From a virus, in the IMG/VR virus record IMGVR_UViG_3300037336_000124, positions 1 through 20,513 of that record: a stretch of 20,513 nucleotides of DNA. One strand, given 5' to 3'. Positions 7,687 to 19,825 of the stretch are shown here, piece by piece; positions within the stretch are counted from its first letter, which is position 1, and every line of letters begins with the position of its first letter. The notes under the pieces are model-generated. The model did no database searches. It saw only the letters and a list, made by a program, of their open reading frames with translations, and was not told the origin of the DNA. A program made the position numbers and the translations under genes.

Positions 7687-8426
7687 AACGCACCGTGGTA
7701 ATATCTGACCTGCAAATTCCCTTCGAGGATCGTAAGGCTGTTGATGCCGTCGCGCAATTCATTGAGGACTTCAAACCTGACAGTGTTATCAGTGTCGGTG
7801 ACGAATCCGATCTCGCACCACTGTCACGCTTCTCACTAGGCACCCGTGGCATGTACGAAGGTAACCTTGGTGCCGAACGTGACCGTGTAGTAGATGTTCT
7901 AGGTATGCTGAAAGTACAGCACATCACCCGCAGCAACCACCTTGACCGTTGGTTCGCTGCACTCTCAAGAGTACCAGCGTTCGAGACAGTACCCGAAATG
8001 AAACTCGAAACGTTCTACAAGTTCGAGCAGTTAGGTGTCACCTACCACAAAGATCCGTGGGCACCAGCAAAGAACACGCTACTCATGCACGGTGACGAGG
8101 GCGCCATGAGCAGTAAGGCAGGGCAGACAGCCCTCGGTTTAGCGTTACGAACCAACACGAACATTGTGTGCGGGCATACGCACCGTCAAGGTATCTCTAG
8201 TACCACGTTCACGTGGCTAGGTAACAAACAACCCAAGACCGTGTTTGGTTTTGAGGTTGGTACCCTCGCAGACTTCAACTCTCCGGGTATGCGCTACGCA
8301 AAGATGAAGAACTGGCAGCAAGGATTCGGCTTGCTGTATGAGGATGGTAGTAACGTCACGCCAGTGGCAATACCGATAGTGAACAAATCTTTTATTGTAG
8401 AGGGGACGATGTACAAATGGAGATGA
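7683..8426 (+). CDS. Calcineurin-like metallophosphoesterase
   Basis: This 247-residue protein shows the five blocks of the calcineurin-like phosphoesterase fold: S-D-L-Q (D9), G-D-E-S-D at 39-43, S-N-H at 84-86, M-H-G-D at 135-138 and G-H-T-H at 164-167. The first block has Gln where many members have His (D-x-Q instead of D-x-H), and the third has Ser instead of Gly before N-H; I believe both occur in phage relatives. It would hydrolyse a phosphodiester or phosphomonoester using two metal ions. Nucleic-acid or nucleotide processing fits the operon. ATG 7683 is chosen over 7656 because it makes an ATGA overlap. Confidence 0.8.
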   Translation: MKRTVVISDLQIPFEDRKAVDAVAQFIEDFKPDSVISVGDESDLAPLSRFSLGTRGMYEGNLGAERDRVVDVLGMLKVQHITRSNHLDRWFAALSRVPAFETVPEMKLETFYKFEQLGVTYHKDPWAPAKNTLLMHGDEGAMSSKAGQTALGLALRTNTNIVCGHTHRQGISSTTFTWLGNKQPKTVFGFEVGTLADFNSPGMRYAKMKNWQQGFGLLYEDGSNVTPVAIPIVNKSFIVEGTMYKWR

Positions 8427-9028
8427 AAGAAATGACTATTACCGATAGTGAAATTAAACTAGCAAAGCAAGGGGCGCAAGGCGCGTACCGTGCAGGGCGT
8501 GGACTGATAGACCTCGGGGATCTTATCGGGGAATCAAACATGTGGATGGTGGAAAACTATCGTAAGGTAGTAACGTGGAGAGATGAAGGTCGCCATGGTC
8601 ACAACAAACTTCGGCAGGCGTGTCGTCAGCGTTGCCTCACTGTGATTGCAAGGGAACGCAAGAAGCGTTCAGGTCTCAAAGGCGGTGACATTTTCTTTTA
8701 CAATCCTCAAATGGTGCGTGAAATTATCGCAGACATTTTTGATGTGGATGACTGGATTACTAGCGGTGTTGATAATGGTGAGTTGCGGGGCAAATCGGTA
8801 CCTTCTGAGGGTGGAAACAAACTAGCCATGGTGGTTGATGTGCGTGGTGCTTTCTATTCCCTTACAGTGGACGACAGGGCTGTTATTACGGCGTTGTATC
8901 GTGACGGTAAATCGTTTACACAGGTAGCGGATGTCCTTGAGGTTGCTGAACGCACGGTGAGGCGCAAGGAAGAACGTATCCTTGAGAAGATTGTTGAACG
9001 GTTGGGTGGGGAGTCACCCTTCAGGTAA
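8417..9028 (+). CDS. Sigma-70 region-4-like DNA-binding protein
   Basis: The 203-residue protein ends in a helix-turn-helix at about residues 148-197 (S-L-T-V-D-D-R-A-V-I-T-A-L-Y, then F-T-Q-V-A-D-V-L and R-T-V-R-R-K-E-E-R). This resembles sigma-70 region 4, which contacts the -35 box. The N-terminal part (about 1-110) is helical and basic and is not clearly region 2. It closes the rightward operon, so it may redirect host RNA polymerase to later phage promoters, which is inference. The start is uncertain: 8417, 8423 (ATGA overlap) and 8432 (GGAG nine bases before) are all possible. Confidence 0.65.
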   Translation: MEMKEMTITDSEIKLAKQGAQGAYRAGRGLIDLGDLIGESNMWMVENYRKVVTWRDEGRHGHNKLRQACRQRCLTVIARERKKRSGLKGGDIFFYNPQMVREIIADIFDVDDWITSGVDNGELRGKSVPSEGGNKLAMVVDVRGAFYSLTVDDRAVITALYRDGKSFTQVADVLEVAERTVRRKEERILEKIVERLGGESPFR

Positions 9029-10679: not shown

Positions 10680-10968
10680 CTTGCACCCCGATCAGTTTCG
10701 TTATCAGTATCCGTGACCTATCTGGTCCCGGTTCCGGTATGTTCCTAGACAAAGCATTCTCAGCCTGCTTCACAGTCCAGTACGGACCCCACGTAAACAT
10801 GCCAAGGCTTGACTGTTGCACCACAACGTACGTGTCCCGTTTAAACACTAAGTCTGACGCAGCAACCAGCACGTTACGTGCCAACGATTCAACGTCGTCA
10901 TGCTCAGCGTCCAGCAGCGCAGTAACCTCCCGTACCTCACCGACACGAGGGTTGAACACGCTAGACAC
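10672..10968 (-). CDS. Hypothetical protein
   Basis: The 98-residue product has a mixed alpha/beta pattern with the aromatic stretch G-M-F-T-W-G-P-Y-W-T near the middle. No cysteine motif, signal peptide or membrane span is visible and no family is recognised. The GTG start overlaps the end of the WhiB-like gene and its stop overlaps the start of the lysozyme-like gene, so the three are probably translated as a coupled set. Confidence 0.6.
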   Translation of the reverse strand: MSSVFNPRVGEVREVTALLDAEHDDVESLARNVLVAASDLVFKRDTYVVVQQSSLGMFTWGPYWTVKQAENALSRNIPEPGPDRSRILITKLIGVQDD

Positions 10969-11254
10969 AACTCAACCCGTAGTCAATCCGTTGATACGGG
11001 ATGCCTCGCTCCCTGCGTGTAGCCTTAAGGTCGGCGGGACTCATGCCACCCCAGAAACCGTACTCTTCGTGACGTAAACCCCACTCACCACAATCAACGT
11101 TGATAGGGCAAGCGTCACAAATCTTTTTTAGTACAGGGTTTTCGACCCGTGCGACACCAACTTCAACAAAAAAAGCGTCGTCACCGATACTGATGCACGT
11201 CCCTTCTTCCCAGCGTATGTCAGTGAATCGTTTAAACGCCACGGTAAACACCAT
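10961..11254 (-). CDS. WhiB-like Fe-S transcription factor
   Basis: This 97-residue protein has the WhiB signature: C20, C46-x2-C49-x5-C55, followed by the turn G-F-W-G-G at 66-70 and a basic A-T-R-R-E-R segment at 78-83. The cysteines hold a [4Fe-4S] cluster and the basic part contacts DNA; in the host such proteins bind the primary sigma factor. WhiB proteins occur only in Actinobacteria and their phages, which is the best host clue here. The start is uncertain: ATG 11254 is adjacent to AAGG, and later GTG codons are possible. The 55-aa Zn-ribbon ORF overlaps it by 23 bases. Confidence 0.85.
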   Translation of the reverse strand: MVFTVAFKRFTDIRWEEGTCISIGDDAFFVEVGVARVENPVLKKICDACPINVDCGEWGLRHEEYGFWGGMSPADLKATRRERGIPYQRIDYGLSCV

Positions 11255-12418: not shown

Positions 12419-13255
12419 CTACCAGCCTGAATTCTTTAACGCTAACCTATCCTCAGTATTCCACCAGTTACCCGAACCACCCTTAGGGGTGTGGCATAGG
12501 CACTCTAAACTATCTGACCCACAATCAACACAATGCCAGCATGTACGGCACACTCCACTAACCGCAGACTCCGACGATTCACCCCAAACAATACCACACT
12601 CGGGGTTAAGGCACTCCACACCAAAGTCAAGGTCGCAATCATCTCGCACATAATACTCGTCCGATAGCATGTACGACCAGTTGGCAGGATACCGCGAAAC
12701 ATAAGGCTTATAACTTGTGTTACTAAACCACATGCCCTCGTCCCAAAGCCCGTCGTCCTCGTTCAATATGTATGTCGGTTGCAGCATGTCATCTCTCGAA
12801 GTCATGATGACCATCTTTGATCCCTTCATCCACTTCTCGAACTTCTTGAACTCTTTAGGCTTATCTAGTGTGCCGACACCACGCCTAGTGAGTATGTCCT
12901 CAGCGAATATCCTAGTATCTGACCTACGATCACCCTTAGCAGGTTCGATAGGCAGCATACCGTTATGCGCCAAGATGGTTCGCTCGTCACCCACCCTGAA
13001 CGGATGATTATTCTCCAGCATAGTAGGGCCATGCGTCGTGATCCTCGCATGATAAACCGCGTCGAAGTCAATCCACTTAGATCGTAACTCCATGTAGCGT
13101 TCAATAGCAGTATTAGGGTTCATGGTTCGACCCGTAATAATCTTGTCTGGTGTACGAACCGCCCAACCAAACCCGTCAGGGTTACTAGCGTTGCAGTTGT
13201 TTAGTTGTCCCTCTGTCGGCATGAATCCTGCCGGGCTATAACATATGATGCACAT
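12419..13255 (-). CDS. Class II glutamine amidotransferase with Zn-ribbon tail
   Basis: This 278-residue protein starts M-C, giving the N-terminal nucleophile Cys2 of Ntn-type (class II) glutamine amidotransferases once Met is removed. Other family motifs follow in order: N-P-D-G-F-G-W-A at 25-32, H-A-R-I-T-T-H-G at 69-76, N-N-H-P-F at 82-86, A-H-N-G at 96-99 and S-D-T-R at 112-115. It should hydrolyse glutamine to glutamate and ammonia. A C-terminal Cys-rich tail (C215, C220, C236, C239, C242, C245, C252, C254) probably forms zinc ribbons and is unusual. No synthetase domain is fused; the amidoligase lies next upstream. AGGAGC precedes the ATG. The partner and product are unknown. Confidence 0.85.
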   Translation of the reverse strand: MCIICYSPAGFMPTEGQLNNCNASNPDGFGWAVRTPDKIITGRTMNPNTAIERYMELRSKWIDFDAVYHARITTHGPTMLENNHPFRVGDERTILAHNGMLPIEPAKGDRRSDTRIFAEDILTRRGVGTLDKPKEFKKFEKWMKGSKMVIMTSRDDMLQPTYILNEDDGLWDEGMWFSNTSYKPYVSRYPANWSYMLSDEYYVRDDCDLDFGVECLNPECGIVWGESSESAVSGVCRTCWHCVDCGSDSLECLCHTPKGGSGNWWNTEDRLALKNSGW

Positions 13256-13280
13256 TGTGTTGCTCCTATTCTTTGCTGAA

Positions 13281-14411
13281 CTATCGCACGTTGCGAGTAG
13301 TCACTAATTGTAGTGCGTAAGGGTAGTCGGATAGTTCCGCGTCCTCTAACCATGTAGTGAAGTTGTCTGCCAGTAATGCCCCTGCCAGTATGTCGTTGAT
13401 CGTAATGTCTCTGGTGTATTCCACTATCGCAGCGACGAACTCCACATAACCTAGTACCGTATGGAACTCATTGTTACCAGCGAACATTCTTACTTCCACA
13501 GTTGCGCTATTGCACAAGTTCAATGCCCTATACCTGTCACCGACTTGTCTTTTAATGCTACGTCGCAACTCGCCTTTATCGTACTTGCTCACCTTCGACC
13601 AACGGTCAATGTATCGTCGTCCACTCACTTTCTCAATGAACTTGGAGTTGTGAACCATGAACGTCGCAAGTCGTGCAAGGTGCATGTCATCTTTGAATGT
13701 AGTCCTAGACACATGAACGTGTGCTCCGCATGAGTCCCGCCCAAAGTTTGAGCCGATACGTTTAGCGTCGCTCATGAACTCCGATATCCTGATCCCGAAC
13801 TCTCCACGCCACCCTTCCAAAGTGGCAGGGTTAGTTATAAACTCCGTCCCTCGCTCCAGTGATCCGTCAGTTTCGGCGTGACCAATATAGTCACCCTCTA
13901 AAGACTCAAAGATGCTGCCTAGCATAGTGTCAAAACCCTCAGACTCTAACTCTACGCCGAAGTGCTGCGACTTGACAGGGTCGCGTGTTGGTTCATCTTC
14001 CACGTCCCAAAACTTTATGCCGTGAGGATTACCACTGTGGTACTCATGCAAGTAAGGTATATCAAATTCACATTCACTATAAGAATCATGACATGACTCG
14101 CAACGGGATTCATAGTCGTCACCAGAGTAGAAGTGATCTTCGTGTGCAAAATATCCGCAGTCCACGCACTCACGATGGTCACTCATGCAACGATTGCACA
14201 TGTCATGGTCACCGTTGTAATGCGTGTCCCTCACGTACACATCGCAATTATGGCACCACGACCAATCCTTATCAACGCACTCACCACACAACAACCGGCC
14301 AGTGCGTGACTCGCCTTGATAGTCAAGGTTCAGGTCTTTATCTTCAAGGCATTGAGAGCAATTAAATAACTCTACTTCGTCCTCTGTGATTGTTTCGGTT
14401 ACGTCAATCAT
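13281..14411 (-). CDS. GS-fold amidoligase with triple Zn-ribbon N-terminus
   Basis: The 376-residue protein has six CxxC pairs in its first 107 residues (C18/21, C42/45, C53/56, C72/75, C82/85, C104/107), fitting three zinc ribbons. The rest matches the amidoligase family (COOH-NH2 ligases with a glutamine-synthetase-like fold): H-F-G-V-E-L-E-S-E at 150-158, H-A-E-T-D-G-S-L-E then E-F-I-T-N-P-A-T-L at 178-198, and C-G-A-H-V-H-V-S-R at 228-236. These supply the metal/ATP acidic residues and the His pair. It should form an amide bond using ATP; the substrate is unknown. ATG 14411 is chosen over 14459 because of the AGGAG just upstream. Confidence 0.8.
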   Translation of the reverse strand: MIDVTETITEDEVELFNCSQCLEDKDLNLDYQGESRTGRLLCGECVDKDWSWCHNCDVYVRDTHYNGDHDMCNRCMSDHRECVDCGYFAHEDHFYSGDDYESRCESCHDSYSECEFDIPYLHEYHSGNPHGIKFWDVEDEPTRDPVKSQHFGVELESEGFDTMLGSIFESLEGDYIGHAETDGSLERGTEFITNPATLEGWRGEFGIRISEFMSDAKRIGSNFGRDSCGAHVHVSRTTFKDDMHLARLATFMVHNSKFIEKVSGRRYIDRWSKVSKYDKGELRRSIKRQVGDRYRALNLCNSATVEVRMFAGNNEFHTVLGYVEFVAAIVEYTRDITINDILAGALLADNFTTWLEDAELSDYPYALQLVTTRNVR

Positions 14412-14430: not shown

Positions 14431-14479
14431 GTATCCGCTTTGGATACTACACCATGCACTGACTCATTCGCCTAGTGCA
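14431..14479 (-). promoter_or_regulatory. Inverted repeats upstream of the amidoligase
   Basis: GTATCC (14431-14436) and GGATAC (14442-14447) form a perfect 6-bp inverted repeat with a 5-base centre, about 20 bases upstream of the amidoligase start. A second pair, TGCACT (14455-14460) and AGTGCA (14474-14479), is separated by 13 bases. These could be a regulator site or mRNA hairpins that tune translation of the amidoligase. No clear promoter hexamers were found. Confidence 0.3.
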
Positions 14480-15879: not shown

Positions 15880-16060
15880 GTTGTACTCACCCTTTCGTTG
15901 CTTCGCCTCAAGGGTTCGTGTTGTTGTTTACTTCGCCTTCACAGTTTACGGCTCAGTAACTAATTTAACGCCAATGGGGGTACCCTCTCCTACACCCCTG
16001 TTAACACCTTAGTTAACGTTGCTGTGTACACAATTTTTTTTTAACGGAAAGGTTGTCTTT

Positions 16061-17938
16061 ATGGCTTCAGCGGGCCGTAAGGCTGGTACTGTTGCCGAGG
16101 CTAAAATCTTGTTCCTTGAGCAGTTGCAGTCAGGTATGACTATTAAGGCCGCAACTAATGCTACTGGCCGTAACATTACGACGTATGAGCGTTGGCGTCG
16201 GGATGATCCTGAGTTTGTGTCGGCGGTTGAACGTATCCGTAACATGAGGAACGTGTCTGGTGTACGTAGGGGTGTTCACTTGTCGTTCCCGGAGTTTAGT
16301 GAAAAGTTTCTTGGTGCCCGCGTTTTTCCTCACATGCAGAATGTGGTGGACATGATTGAGGGTGGGAAGCCTTCGTGGGTTCATCCTAGTATGACGCATG
16401 AGGGTGGGGAACCTGACCTTATTATTGCGAACATGCCACCAGAACACGCGAAGACTACGAGTATAACAATTAATTATGCCGTGTACCGTATTGCTATGGA
16501 CCCTAATACTCGTATCCTTATCGTGTCGAAGACACAAAGTATGGCTAAGAAAATGCTTTTTGCTATCAAGACTCGTTTGACGCATCCCCGCTACGCGGAC
16601 ATGATTACCCAGTACGGTCCGGTGGGTGGTTTCGATAAGGATGCTGAAGCGTGGAATCAGGACATGATCTACATTTCTGGTAATGCCCGTGACAGTGGCG
16701 AGAAAGACCCCACTGTGCAGGCTCTTGGTATTAGGGGCCAGATTTATGGTGCCCGCGCCGACCTCATTATTTTGGATGATGCTATTGATAGTATTAACGC
16801 CCACGATTATGAGCGACAAATAGATTGGATACAATCTGAGGTTGTCTCCCGAATTTCTTCATCAGGTGCCTTGCTAGTGGTTGGTACACGACTTTCCAGC
16901 AAAGACCTTTACTCAGAGTTACGTGACCCGAAAAGGTACCCTGATGAGGAATCCCCATGGTCATACTTGGGGATGCCTGCCGTCTTACAGACGGACGAGG
17001 ACCCCCTAAAATGGGTCACGTTGTGGCCTAAATCCAATCAGATTGAGATTGGGGCTAAAGGGGCAGACACAGAACCAGACGAGGACGGGCTGTTCCCTAA
17101 ATGGAACGGCACAAAATTATCTAAGAAACGCAAACGTATGACACCGCGAGTGTGGAGTATGGTCTACCAGCAGCAGCAGGTTGCTGATGAATCCATCTTC
17201 ACTATGGAGTCGTTGCGTGGAAGTATTAACGGTAACCGTATGACTGGTCCTATGCCTAAAGGTATGGTGAACTGCCGACAGAATGGTATGGATGGTCTCA
17301 TTATTATTGCTGGCCTCGACCCTGCCACTTCTGGGCACACCGCCGCCGTAGTTATTGGCCTAGATCATTACACGAACAAACGATACGTACTAGACGTGTA
17401 CAACAAGGCGGGTACTACACCTGAAGAGATCCGGGATCTTATCAAGAACTGGACTGACCGTTATGGGGTAGTTGAATGGAGAATAGAAAAAAACGGTTTC
17501 CAAGGGTTCCTTGTCCATGACCGCGAAATAAACCAGTATTGTGCTGGGCGCGGTGCAAGGATCATGCCCCATTTTACTGGCAACAACAAGCATGACGCCG
17601 ATTTTGGTGTTGCTTCTATGACAACTTTGTGGGCAGGGTGGGAAGATAAACATCACCTTGTAGAGTTACCGTCCACTCACGGTTCTGAAGCAGCCAAAGC
17701 AATGGTGGAACAACTCGTTACTTGGTCGCCTAACGCACCTAAAGGAACGAAGACAGATATTGTTATGGCTTTGTGGTTTGCTGAACTTGGTGTTCGGGAC
17801 CGTATCACGTTGCGGGGCAACTACACTAGGTCACACGTAAAGAACTCTTTCCTTACCCCGTGGGATAAATCGAATCAGATTACAGTTGACCTTGTTGACG
17901 CTGAAGCGCAGCAACGTTGGCAAACTATTGGTGTTTAG
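16061..17938 (+). CDS. terL: Terminase large subunit
   Basis: This 625-residue protein powers DNA packaging and cuts concatemers. The ATPase has a variant Walker A in N-M-P-P-E-H-A-K-T-T-S (124-134), Walker B L-I-I-L-D-D at 235-240 and V-V-G-T-R at 273-277. The RNase H-like nuclease has D420 (A-G-L-D-P-A-T-S-G), E476 (W-R-I-E-K-N-G) and D566 (K-T-D-I-V-M-A-L). Residues about 25-50 look like a helix-turn-helix, so a small-subunit-like DNA-binding function may be fused; no separate small terminase is seen. ATG 16061 is chosen over 16019 because AAAGG lies about nine bases before it. Confidence 0.92.
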   Translation: MASAGRKAGTVAEAKILFLEQLQSGMTIKAATNATGRNITTYERWRRDDPEFVSAVERIRNMRNVSGVRRGVHLSFPEFSEKFLGARVFPHMQNVVDMIEGGKPSWVHPSMTHEGGEPDLIIANMPPEHAKTTSITINYAVYRIAMDPNTRILIVSKTQSMAKKMLFAIKTRLTHPRYADMITQYGPVGGFDKDAEAWNQDMIYISGNARDSGEKDPTVQALGIRGQIYGARADLIILDDAIDSINAHDYERQIDWIQSEVVSRISSSGALLVVGTRLSSKDLYSELRDPKRYPDEESPWSYLGMPAVLQTDEDPLKWVTLWPKSNQIEIGAKGADTEPDEDGLFPKWNGTKLSKKRKRMTPRVWSMVYQQQQVADESIFTMESLRGSINGNRMTGPMPKGMVNCRQNGMDGLIIIAGLDPATSGHTAAVVIGLDHYTNKRYVLDVYNKAGTTPEEIRDLIKNWTDRYGVVEWRIEKNGFQGFLVHDREINQYCAGRGARIMPHFTGNNKHDADFGVASMTTLWAGWEDKHHLVELPSTHGSEAAKAMVEQLVTWSPNAPKGTKTDIVMALWFAELGVRDRITLRGNYTRSHVKNSFLTPWDKSNQITVDLVDAEAQQRWQTIGV

Positions 17939-17947
17939 GAGTAATTA

Positions 17948-19825
17948 GTGAATGAACTAACAGGTGGCAAGGGCACAGAAGATGTGCCTATGCGCGAACT
18001 TAGGGGCTTGTACACCCGCACCAAGACCCGTTTCACTGCCCGCGATACCCGTATGCAGAACGTTCTTGCTGTACGTCAAGGCCGTATGCGTGACGTTTTC
18101 CCTGCCCTGTTCCCTGAAGGCCCCTTCGATGGTGGCATCGTGGCGAACATGGTTGATGTTGCGGCCCGTGACCTGTCAGAAGTACTAGCACCACTACCAT
18201 CCTTTAACTGTTCCTCATCTAAGATGACTAACGACACGGCTCGTGCCTTCGCTGAGAAACGCACACGCATCGTTAACGGCTACTTGGATAACAGTGGCCT
18301 GCAAATACAAATGTACACGGCGGCAGACCGCTACTTCACTTACGGTTTCGTTCCCAGCATCATCGAAATTGATGACGAAAACAAAATGCCAAGGATTCGT
18401 TTCCTTGATTCTATCGGTGCATACCCTATCTTTGACCGTTGGGGAATGATCACTGCTGGTTTCTTTTCTTTCTTCAAGTCCCGCGACGAACTCATAGTCA
18501 TGTACCCCCACACTCGGGGTATCCTTGAGACTCCCGGTGGTGGAGGGGGCAACGACCTTATAGAGATTGTTCGCTACCACGACAAGCACGTTGACATGAT
18601 CTTCATGCCCCACAAAGAAGGCATGATACTGGAATCAGTCAAGAACCCTGTGGGTGAATGTCTCCTAGAATGGACTCAACGTCCCGGTGTTGATGAAGAA
18701 TCACACGGACAGTTCGATGACGTGCTAGCAGTACAGGTTGCTAAGGCAAGGTTTGCTTTACTGAGCCTTGAGGCTGCACAGAAAAGTGTTCAGGCACCCA
18801 TCGTGCTGCCACTTGACGCGCAAGAAATGACGTTCGGACCTGACTCTATCATCCGAACTAACAGCGGTGACCGTGTACGAAGGGTAGCCCTTGAGGTTCC
18901 TTCTGTTGCTTTCGCTCAACAAGGTGTACTTGATCAAGAGTTACGGCAGGGTTCACGTTACCCTGACGCACGTAACGGCAACGTTGAGGGCAGTGTTGTT
19001 ACTGGCCGTGGCGTTCAGGCACTCATGTCAGGTTTTGACACGCAGATCCGCACAGGTCAAGCCATGTTTGCCCGCACCCTTGAACGTCTTGTTCGCAAAT
19101 CGTTGATGCTTGACGACATGCTGTTCGCTACTGTAAGCAAAACTGTTCGCGGTAACGCCGACGGTACCCCGTATGAGGTGAAGTACCGCCCAGAAAAAGA
19201 CATTGACGGTGACTACACTGTTGACGTACAGTACGGTCTCATGGCCGGACTAGACCCCAACAGGGCACTCGTGTTTGGTTTGCAGGCCCGTGGAGACAAA
19301 CTGATTTCCCGTGACTTCCTTCGCCGCCAAATGCCTTTCTCTTTGAACGCTTCAGAAGAAGAACAACAAGTAGACATCGAAGAACTCAGGGATGCGTTGA
19401 AGCAGGCTGTTGCGGGTTACGCACAAGCCATACCTATCCTTGCACAGAACGGTCAAGACCCCGGAGAAATCCTTGCACGTCTATCCCAAATTATTATTGG
19501 TAGGCAAAAAGGTTTACCGATGGAAAAGATTGTCTCAGAAGCCTTCGCTCCTGAGCCTGCTCCCATGCTGCCGGGGGTTGAACAGTCAGGTGTTGATGAC
19601 CCTAACGCTGAGATGCTGGGTCCCTCTGGCGAGGTTCCCCCCGGCGGTGATGGTAACGCTCTTGCTGGCCTGAACGATGCCACTGGTCAACTCCGTGGGG
19701 TGGCACCGGGACAGTCCGGCATGAGTCCGGGTGGTGCACCTGACATGCAAACCCTTCTTGCGTCCATGGGTTCTAATGGGCAACCTAACTTGCAGGCTGG
19801 CGTTACACGCCGCCTACCTATCTAA
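17948..19825 (+). CDS. Portal protein
   Basis: The 625-residue protein follows the terminase directly, the usual portal position. Its N-terminal and central parts are mixed alpha/beta, and the C-terminal part has helices followed by a Gly/Pro/Gln-rich tail from about residue 535. The length and the pattern D-x-F-P-A-L-F-P in the first 60 residues, followed by a dense strand-helix core, fit large portals of tailed phages. The portal forms the dodecameric vertex through which DNA enters. AGGAG lies seven bases before the GTG start. The call rests mostly on position, size and composition. Confidence 0.8.
   Translation: MNELTGGKGTEDVPMRELRGLYTRTKTRFTARDTRMQNVLAVRQGRMRDVFPALFPEGPFDGGIVANMVDVAARDLSEVLAPLPSFNCSSSKMTNDTARAFAEKRTRIVNGYLDNSGLQIQMYTAADRYFTYGFVPSIIEIDDENKMPRIRFLDSIGAYPIFDRWGMITAGFFSFFKSRDELIVMYPHTRGILETPGGGGGNDLIEIVRYHDKHVDMIFMPHKEGMILESVKNPVGECLLEWTQRPGVDEESHGQFDDVLAVQVAKARFALLSLEAAQKSVQAPIVLPLDAQEMTFGPDSIIRTNSGDRVRRVALEVPSVAFAQQGVLDQELRQGSRYPDARNGNVEGSVVTGRGVQALMSGFDTQIRTGQAMFARTLERLVRKSLMLDDMLFATVSKTVRGNADGTPYEVKYRPEKDIDGDYTVDVQYGLMAGLDPNRALVFGLQARGDKLISRDFLRRQMPFSLNASEEEQQVDIEELRDALKQAVAGYAQAIPILAQNGQDPGEILARLSQIIIGRQKGLPMEKIVSEAFAPEPAPMLPGVEQSGVDDPNAEMLGPSGEVPPGGDGNALAGLNDATGQLRGVAPGQSGMSPGGAPDMQTLLASMGSNGQPNLQAGVTRRLPI

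Follow-up and report, generated by a model that had tools for sequence, protein, structure and literature searches.

An adjacent amidoligase and class II glutamine amidotransferase gene pair with predicted zinc-ribbon arrays in phages, plasmids and mobilisable elements

Described pairs and the setting of the locus

A pair of genes for an amidoligase and a class II glutamine amidotransferase (GAT-II, hereafter GAT) has already been reported in Marvin, LUZ24-like and OM43 phages, in accounts which cite Iyer 2009. The name 'peptidoglycan modification cassette' is attributed to Iyer 2009 and Hardies 2013 in papers citing them (PMC5498523, PMC11945000; also PMC3890496). Peptidoglycan has been proposed as the target of the LUZ24 cassette (PMC5498523), and the cell wall or secondary metabolites as targets in LUZ24-like, phiEco32-like, OM43 and Marvin phages. 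Here we compare these systems with a pair found in the window, which is the entire IMG/VR record IMGVR_UViG_3300037336_000124 (20,513 bases) and a piece of a tailed phage genome.

Among isolated phages, the pair most closely related to that of the window is gp105-gp106 of the cluster S mycobacteriophage Marvin (34% for the GAT, 29-31% for the amidoligase), in which, as in the window, the amidoligase gene is directly followed by the GAT gene and both proteins carry CxxC clusters. However, the Marvin amidoligase is longer in its C-terminal part and poorer in CxxC at its front, and the phage genome is different. Both Marvin genes bear the annotation 'glutamine amidotransferase domain protein', a name that belongs to the gene after gp105. 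The same annotation stands on the amidoligase (Marvin gp105 and relatives; L001 6025-7386) in most of 19 mycobacteriophage records.

In LUZ24, the amidoligase gp18 and the GAT-II gp19 have the same order as in the window with an 11-nt gap, match the window families remotely, and are accompanied by a COOH-NH2 ligase, an ATP-grasp protein and a gamma-glutamyl cyclotransferase; unlike the window amidoligase, gp18 has no zinc-ribbon front. Neither the gamma-glutamyl cyclotransferase nor the COOH-NH2 ligase (PF14395) was found in the window and 24 related contigs of ~40 kb, whereas the cyclotransferase was found in LUZ24 and LUZ24 was positive for the ligase in the same search. The ATP-grasp/RimK-like model PF08443 matched nothing in the window relatives and also missed the annotated ATP-grasp protein of LUZ24. 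Since the cyclotransferase and the COOH-NH2 ligase are absent and the ribbons are present, we class the window pair as a reduced, zinc-ribbon-bearing variant, similar to the core of the described cassette but lacking some of its defining features. The OM43 (Methylophilales) phages MEP401 and MEP402 encode an amidoligase and then a GAT as overlapping genes (gp05-gp06), which have been mentioned together (PMC10580990); compared to the window, their GAT is without a zinc-ribbon tail and the front of their amidoligase is long and unrelated.

Two cellular systems offer further comparison. MurT-GatD of S. aureus combines a Mur-ligase fold with a class I amidotransferase. It is described as performing a two-component, glutamine-dependent amidation of a carboxylate, and we see in it a likeness in working and claim no homology (PMC3267633, PMC5871853). 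In ergothioneine synthesis, a homolog of gamma-glutamyl ligases (EgtA) and a protein of GAT-II fold (EgtC), the latter being a fold match of the window GAT, serve one pathway (PMC9103826), but this pathway has five genes and no zinc ribbons are known in EgtA-EgtC.

The window also encodes a terminase and a portal protein (Table 1), a DnaB-type helicase, a RusA resolvase, an exonuclease, a primase and a metallophosphoesterase. A sigma-factor-like or regulator protein (8417-9028), kept in the aquatic phage lineage, adjoins the metallophosphoesterase. The pair belongs to a leftward gene block together with a WhiB-like regulator, and this regulator and the similarity to Marvin point to an actinobacterial host. 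A nucleotide search of the whole window against sequenced phages gave no match, no tRNA genes were found, and a scan for promoters and terminators gave no more sites than shuffled sequence.

Table 1. Positions of the pair, its predicted parts and selected genes in the window
Feature	Coordinates	Strand	Basis
WhiB-like regulator	10961..11254	(-)	PHROG 472, 3.7e-13
GAT-II (Ntn hydrolase), 278 aa, starts Met-Cys (ATG 13255)	12419..13255	(-)	PHROG 25883, AlphaFold2, Foldseek, residues
GAT C-terminal cysteine cluster (Cx4C, three overlapping CxxC, CxC), probably two zinc sites	12482..12616	(-)	Cysteine positions
Intergenic gap, 25 nt from amidoligase stop to GAT ATG, with AGGAG ribosome-binding site for GAT	13256..13280	(-)	Sequence
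Glutamine synthetase (GS)-fold amidoligase, 376 aa from ATG 14411	13281..14411	(-)	Pfam, AlphaFold2, Foldseek, catalytic residues
Amidoligase catalytic GS-like domain	13284..13970	(-)	GxExE, DGS, GxE, GxHxHxS, R265, N298, ExR; dN/dS 0.07
Amidoligase N-terminal array, six CxxC knuckles, probably three four-Cys zinc sites	14082..14372	(-)	Cysteine positions
Terminase	16019-17938		
Portal	17948-19825		

The two enzymes and their cysteine arrays

Both genes lie at the positions given in the initial annotation, and its description of a motif-complete glutaminase holds also in the relatives. The motifs MC (residues 1-2), HAR (69-71), TTHG, NNHPF, AHNG and SDT are exact in the window GAT; among 60 homologs, Arg71 and Asn98-Gly99 are conserved in all, and Cys2 and Asp113 in 59 each. 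The protein matches PHROG 25883 at 1e-43, and a PDB search with a profile of its family reaches GlmS at 7e-13. Its match to Pfam GATase_6 (9.9e-5, 22.8 bits) stays below the cut-off of 27, which is exceeded by several close relatives. The AlphaFold2 model (pLDDT 86.6) was matched by Foldseek to GlmS (7.9e-7), PurF (5.6e-5) and EgtC (8.6e-5). Sequence and model confirm the product as a GAT-II with all catalytic residues, for which glutaminase activity is predicted.

The open reading frame of the amidoligase runs from 14459 to 13281 and is open from a GTG at 14459. The ATG at 14411, with GAGGAGAGGACAGA before it, is the likely start; it stands after GAGGAGAGG and is a better start than the GTG. 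Pfam Amidoligase_2 (PF12224), the profile proposed for checking in the initial annotation, matches the protein at 3.6e-6 with 27.5 bits, above the curated cut-off of 22. The acidic and His motifs are intact as had been claimed, namely GVELE (E154, E156), TDGS (D182), GTE (E190) and GAHVHVS (H231, H233), and all 12 of the tested catalytic positions (acidic metal-binding, His/Arg) are invariant in 91 diverse homologs. The AlphaFold2 model (pLDDT 83.9) was matched by Foldseek to glutamine synthetase (1.5e-4) and YbdK (3e-4) with a probability of 1.00; the TM-scores, taken over the whole two-part chain, reach only 0.3-0.4. Dop and glutamate-cysteine ligase are further fold matches. The product is thereby confirmed, at the level of sequence and predicted structure, as a GS-fold amidoligase, and ATP-dependent amide formation is predicted for it.

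Both genes are under purifying selection: between the window and the sister contig L005, dN/dS is 0.13 in the amidoligase gene and 0.017 in the GAT gene. The dS value, however, is 0.40 for the amidoligase (window 13281-14411 versus L005 6001-7179) as compared to 0.09 for the GAT, so that the amidoligase forms a divergent patch, with its start region rewritten too, between nearly identical flanks in two sister phages. This contrast suggests that amidoligase alleles have been exchanged between sister phages by recombination.

CxxC arrays are present in both proteins, as had been noticed from the letters. In the amidoligase, six CxxC begin at residues 18, 42, 53, 72, 82 and 104, and all 12 of these cysteines fall within the first 107 residues. 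C53, C56, C72 and C75 are nearly invariant in the 91 homologs, five of the CxxC are invariant between aquatic phages and clostridial elements, and a profile comparison gives a weak match to LIM domains (0.0038). The GAT tail holds eight cysteines between residues 215 and 254, and four CxxC are found in the tails of most aquatic-phage and Nocardia relatives. Judging from the cysteine pattern, both arrays probably bind zinc.

The GAT ribbons are absent from the OM43 phage MEP401, from ctgrD200 and from all clostridial forms, where amidoligases with six or seven CxxC stand beside GATs with none. Scored by at least four CxxC in the amidoligase and at least two in the GAT tail, the viral pairs divide into 139 with ribbons in both proteins, 35 with ribbons in the amidoligase only, 5 in the GAT only and 54 in neither, counts which are inflated by shared ancestry. 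Since ribbon-less GATs pair with arrayed amidoligases in the clostridial forms and in the 35 viral pairs, the array, common across the amidoligase family, is the more basic feature, and the GAT ribbons, confined to part of their family, may depend on it. The suggestion that the ribbons bring both proteins to a common target gains indirect support from the near restriction of GAT ribbons to pairs with an arrayed amidoligase; the same shared ancestry weakens it.

Adjacency and the predicted reaction

Only amidoligase alignments were used to collect relatives, which left the GAT out of the selection. Scans of viral contigs returned more than 570 relatives each, and 244 loci were kept as the best. 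In 229 of these the amidoligase is followed by a GAT on the same strand with a gap below 300 nt (within 60 nt in 209). The GAT was listed first in seven loci, of which six are adjacent pairs in reverse order; in four others the two genes share a strand at a distance of 390-901 nt, one contig being counted twice; and in the last four, without a GAT, the contig ends within 82 nt of the amidoligase gene. A scan of bacterial and archaeal genomes returned 481 relatives, from which 79 loci were read, and the GAT adjoins the amidoligase in 72 of the 74 that have one. As some contigs were fetched repeatedly, the 323 viral and genomic loci were grouped by shared neighbours into 47 unrelated contexts. 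The two genes touch in 42 of them, the GAT lies 390-901 nt downstream in three, and two are cut by contig ends. Amidoligase distances and GAT distances are correlated (r=0.80, a value reached in none of 500 permutations), and in clostridial elements the GAT has been swapped for one of a different GAT-II subfamily with the pairing kept. The pair is thus clearly a working unit, near-universally adjacent in one order and co-inherited. The initial annotation had named loss of the motifs, lack of adjacency and a fold unlike GS as findings that would speak against it; all three were checked, and the relatives keep the motifs and the adjacency while the models keep the fold.

The remaining locus with the GAT listed first (L163, 2446-4023) was considered as an amidoligase-GAT fusion and rejected, as the Cys2 region of the GAT is absent and the zinc-ribbon front lies in another frame; by its sequence, this reading frame appears to be a decayed or misassembled joint. 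Since the catalytic Cys of the GAT must be free at the N-terminus, a true fusion is unlikely. One exception to the pairing is real: in a relative from a C. difficile phage-plasmid, no GAT is annotated next to the amidoligase, and some relatives may therefore need none.

Because a GAT-II and an ATP-using GS-fold ligase are nearly always found together, we propose that the pair would act as a two-component, glutamine-dependent amide-forming enzyme in which ammonia from the GAT feeds the ligase. We give this reading about an even chance. Removal of Met1 would free Cys2 of the GAT, which would hydrolyse glutamine and release ammonia. The amidoligase, with ATP and a metal, would activate a carboxylate to an acyl-phosphate, and attack of the ammonia on this intermediate would yield a carboxamide. 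The zinc ribbons would most likely tether the GAT to the amidoligase, or both of them to one macromolecular substrate. We infer both the supply of ammonia to the ligase and the identity of what is amidated. LUZ24, with the same gene order in a cassette proposed for peptidoglycan (PMC5498523), counts in favour of amidation, while EgtC counts against it, showing that a GAT-II-fold protein that works with a GS-fold ligase may act as a gamma-glutamyl amidohydrolase and not as an ammonia donor.

The EgtA/EgtC precedent (PMC9103826) leads to the strongest rival of two-component amidation, in which the amidoligase couples an amine with an amino-acid group, gamma-glutamyl or another, that is later split off by the GAT acting as an amidohydrolase. 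The match of the GAT model to EgtC, a weak match of a clostridial GAT to the EgtC model, and the presence of the gamma-glutamyl ligases YbdK and glutamate-cysteine ligase among the fold matches of the amidoligase are all consistent with such a sequence of events. However, the ammonia-donating glutaminases GlmS and PurF match the GAT better in both fold and sequence, and no further pathway gene accompanies the pair. The conserved glutamine-contacting residues Arg71 and Asp113 would also speak for a glutaminase, but they do not discriminate, because EgtC retains glutamine-contact residues too; the conserved residues thus do not decide between the two readings. On balance we regard this adding and removing of a group as unlikely.

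Distribution, candidate targets and meaning

The initial annotation placed the pair in phage biology, and this scope proved too narrow, as the pair is found also on mobilisable elements, plasmids and actinobacterial chromosomes. In Nocardia and its kin it often occurs as two or three copies in tandem (for example L255-L258 and L261-L265); Prim-Pol and DUF2637 genes lie near one Nocardia pair (L255) and a DUF4192 gene at another Nocardia locus, and a Saccharopolyspora locus has TniQ/TniB. Two pairs per phage are seen in L154, L201 and L220. Mycobacterial plasmids carry the pair as well, and on pGD21-2 we read the gene after the amidoligase, annotated as glucosamine 6-phosphate synthetase, as the GAT. 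The pair is also present in an Acinetobacter phage. One contig binned as Lokiarchaeota (L285, JAHPYZ010000033) has the pair among phage-like genes, with an SSB-like protein recognised by eye; it stems either from a virus of archaea or from a phage that was mis-binned.

Loci of Ruminococcus and relatives show the succession DUF960-amidoligase-GAT, followed by a resolvase or integrase gene, and the opposite strand carries NikA-like and relaxase genes; from this gene content we identify these loci as mobilisable elements. In 36 of 41 loci (L291, L294-L331) the amidoligase gene is directly preceded by DUF960, and several genomes of this set have multiple copies of the cassette. Three sequences, L004 (MT839723.1, 'Bacteriophage sp.' in GenBank), L088 and L089, cluster with the clostridial mobilisable elements by shared neighbours and may not be phages. 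A related amidoligase has been listed with a GGCT-like gene in Tn6164 of C. difficile (PMC3485107). In the mostly open literature that was searched, we found no earlier account that places the pair on clostridial mobilisable elements, in Nocardia tandems or on mycobacterial plasmids.

Such a distribution could be expected if the pair served in counter-defence or conflict between elements, spreading as cargo and covalently modifying a host defence or regulatory protein chosen by the ribbons. Its occurrence in phages, on mycobacterial plasmids and on clostridial mobilisable elements that encode a relaxase and a resolvase, the Tn7-like or integrative-element genes in its neighbourhoods, and the restriction or Fic genes beside some clostridial copies would all fit. 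Against this stands that no PADLOC model matched the two window proteins or the Nocardia and clostridial proteins tried, that the defence association, with neighbours taken against no background rate, is weak, and that superinfection exclusion through a change of the wall would give the same distribution. We therefore hold a role in counter-defence to be quite unlikely.

Neighbouring genes were rejected as a guide to the pathway, as no third gene recurs beside the pair across the contexts outside the window's own phage lineage, where the recurring neighbours are the terminase, the phosphoesterase and the sigma-like and WhiB genes. This bears on the idea that phage DNA or nucleotides are modified; a DNA base, among the targets first suggested for the window, is not supported. 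In favour of the idea, nucleic acid is a frequent ligand of zinc ribbons, and some phages have the pair close to replication genes. However, no nucleotide-modification gene recurs beside it, and it is also present in bacterial genomes with ordinary neighbours, which makes such a target the most improbable of those weighed here. Scarcely more probable is a role as auxiliary metabolic genes of nitrogen or amino-acid metabolism, boosting the turnover of glutamine or glutamate. Hosts already have a glutamine synthetase, and zinc-ribbon arrays and tandem duplicates would be unexpected for a bulk metabolic enzyme, although a metabolic reading has been given for a planctomycete phage with an amidoligase and a GAT (PMC10945688).

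Under two-component amidation, the most likely target would be a carboxylate in peptide precursors of the host envelope, whose amidation would change the chemistry of the wall in the course of infection or in cells where a mobile element harbours the cassette. Taken by itself this choice of substrate is tentative, and it is weakened by the finding that no envelope gene co-occurs with the pair across the contexts. A broader version, in which a ribbon-guided amidation unit is general cargo of mobile elements and amidates one host macromolecule, for example against rival phages or defences, appears rather unlikely at present. If true, it would constitute a new class of host-takeover or exclusion system, beyond a part of a peptidoglycan cassette.

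The pair was already known in phages as part of a proposed peptidoglycan-modification cassette, and phage amidoligases have appeared in lists for more than a decade, their role being no more than a guess. The occurrence of the two-gene form in a tractable phage (Marvin, of M. smegmatis) and on plasmids and mobilisable elements makes the substrate testable without the other enzymes of the cassette. If wall precursors are modified, the pair would bear on superinfection exclusion, and if a protein is modified, it would represent an unrecognised kind of host takeover.
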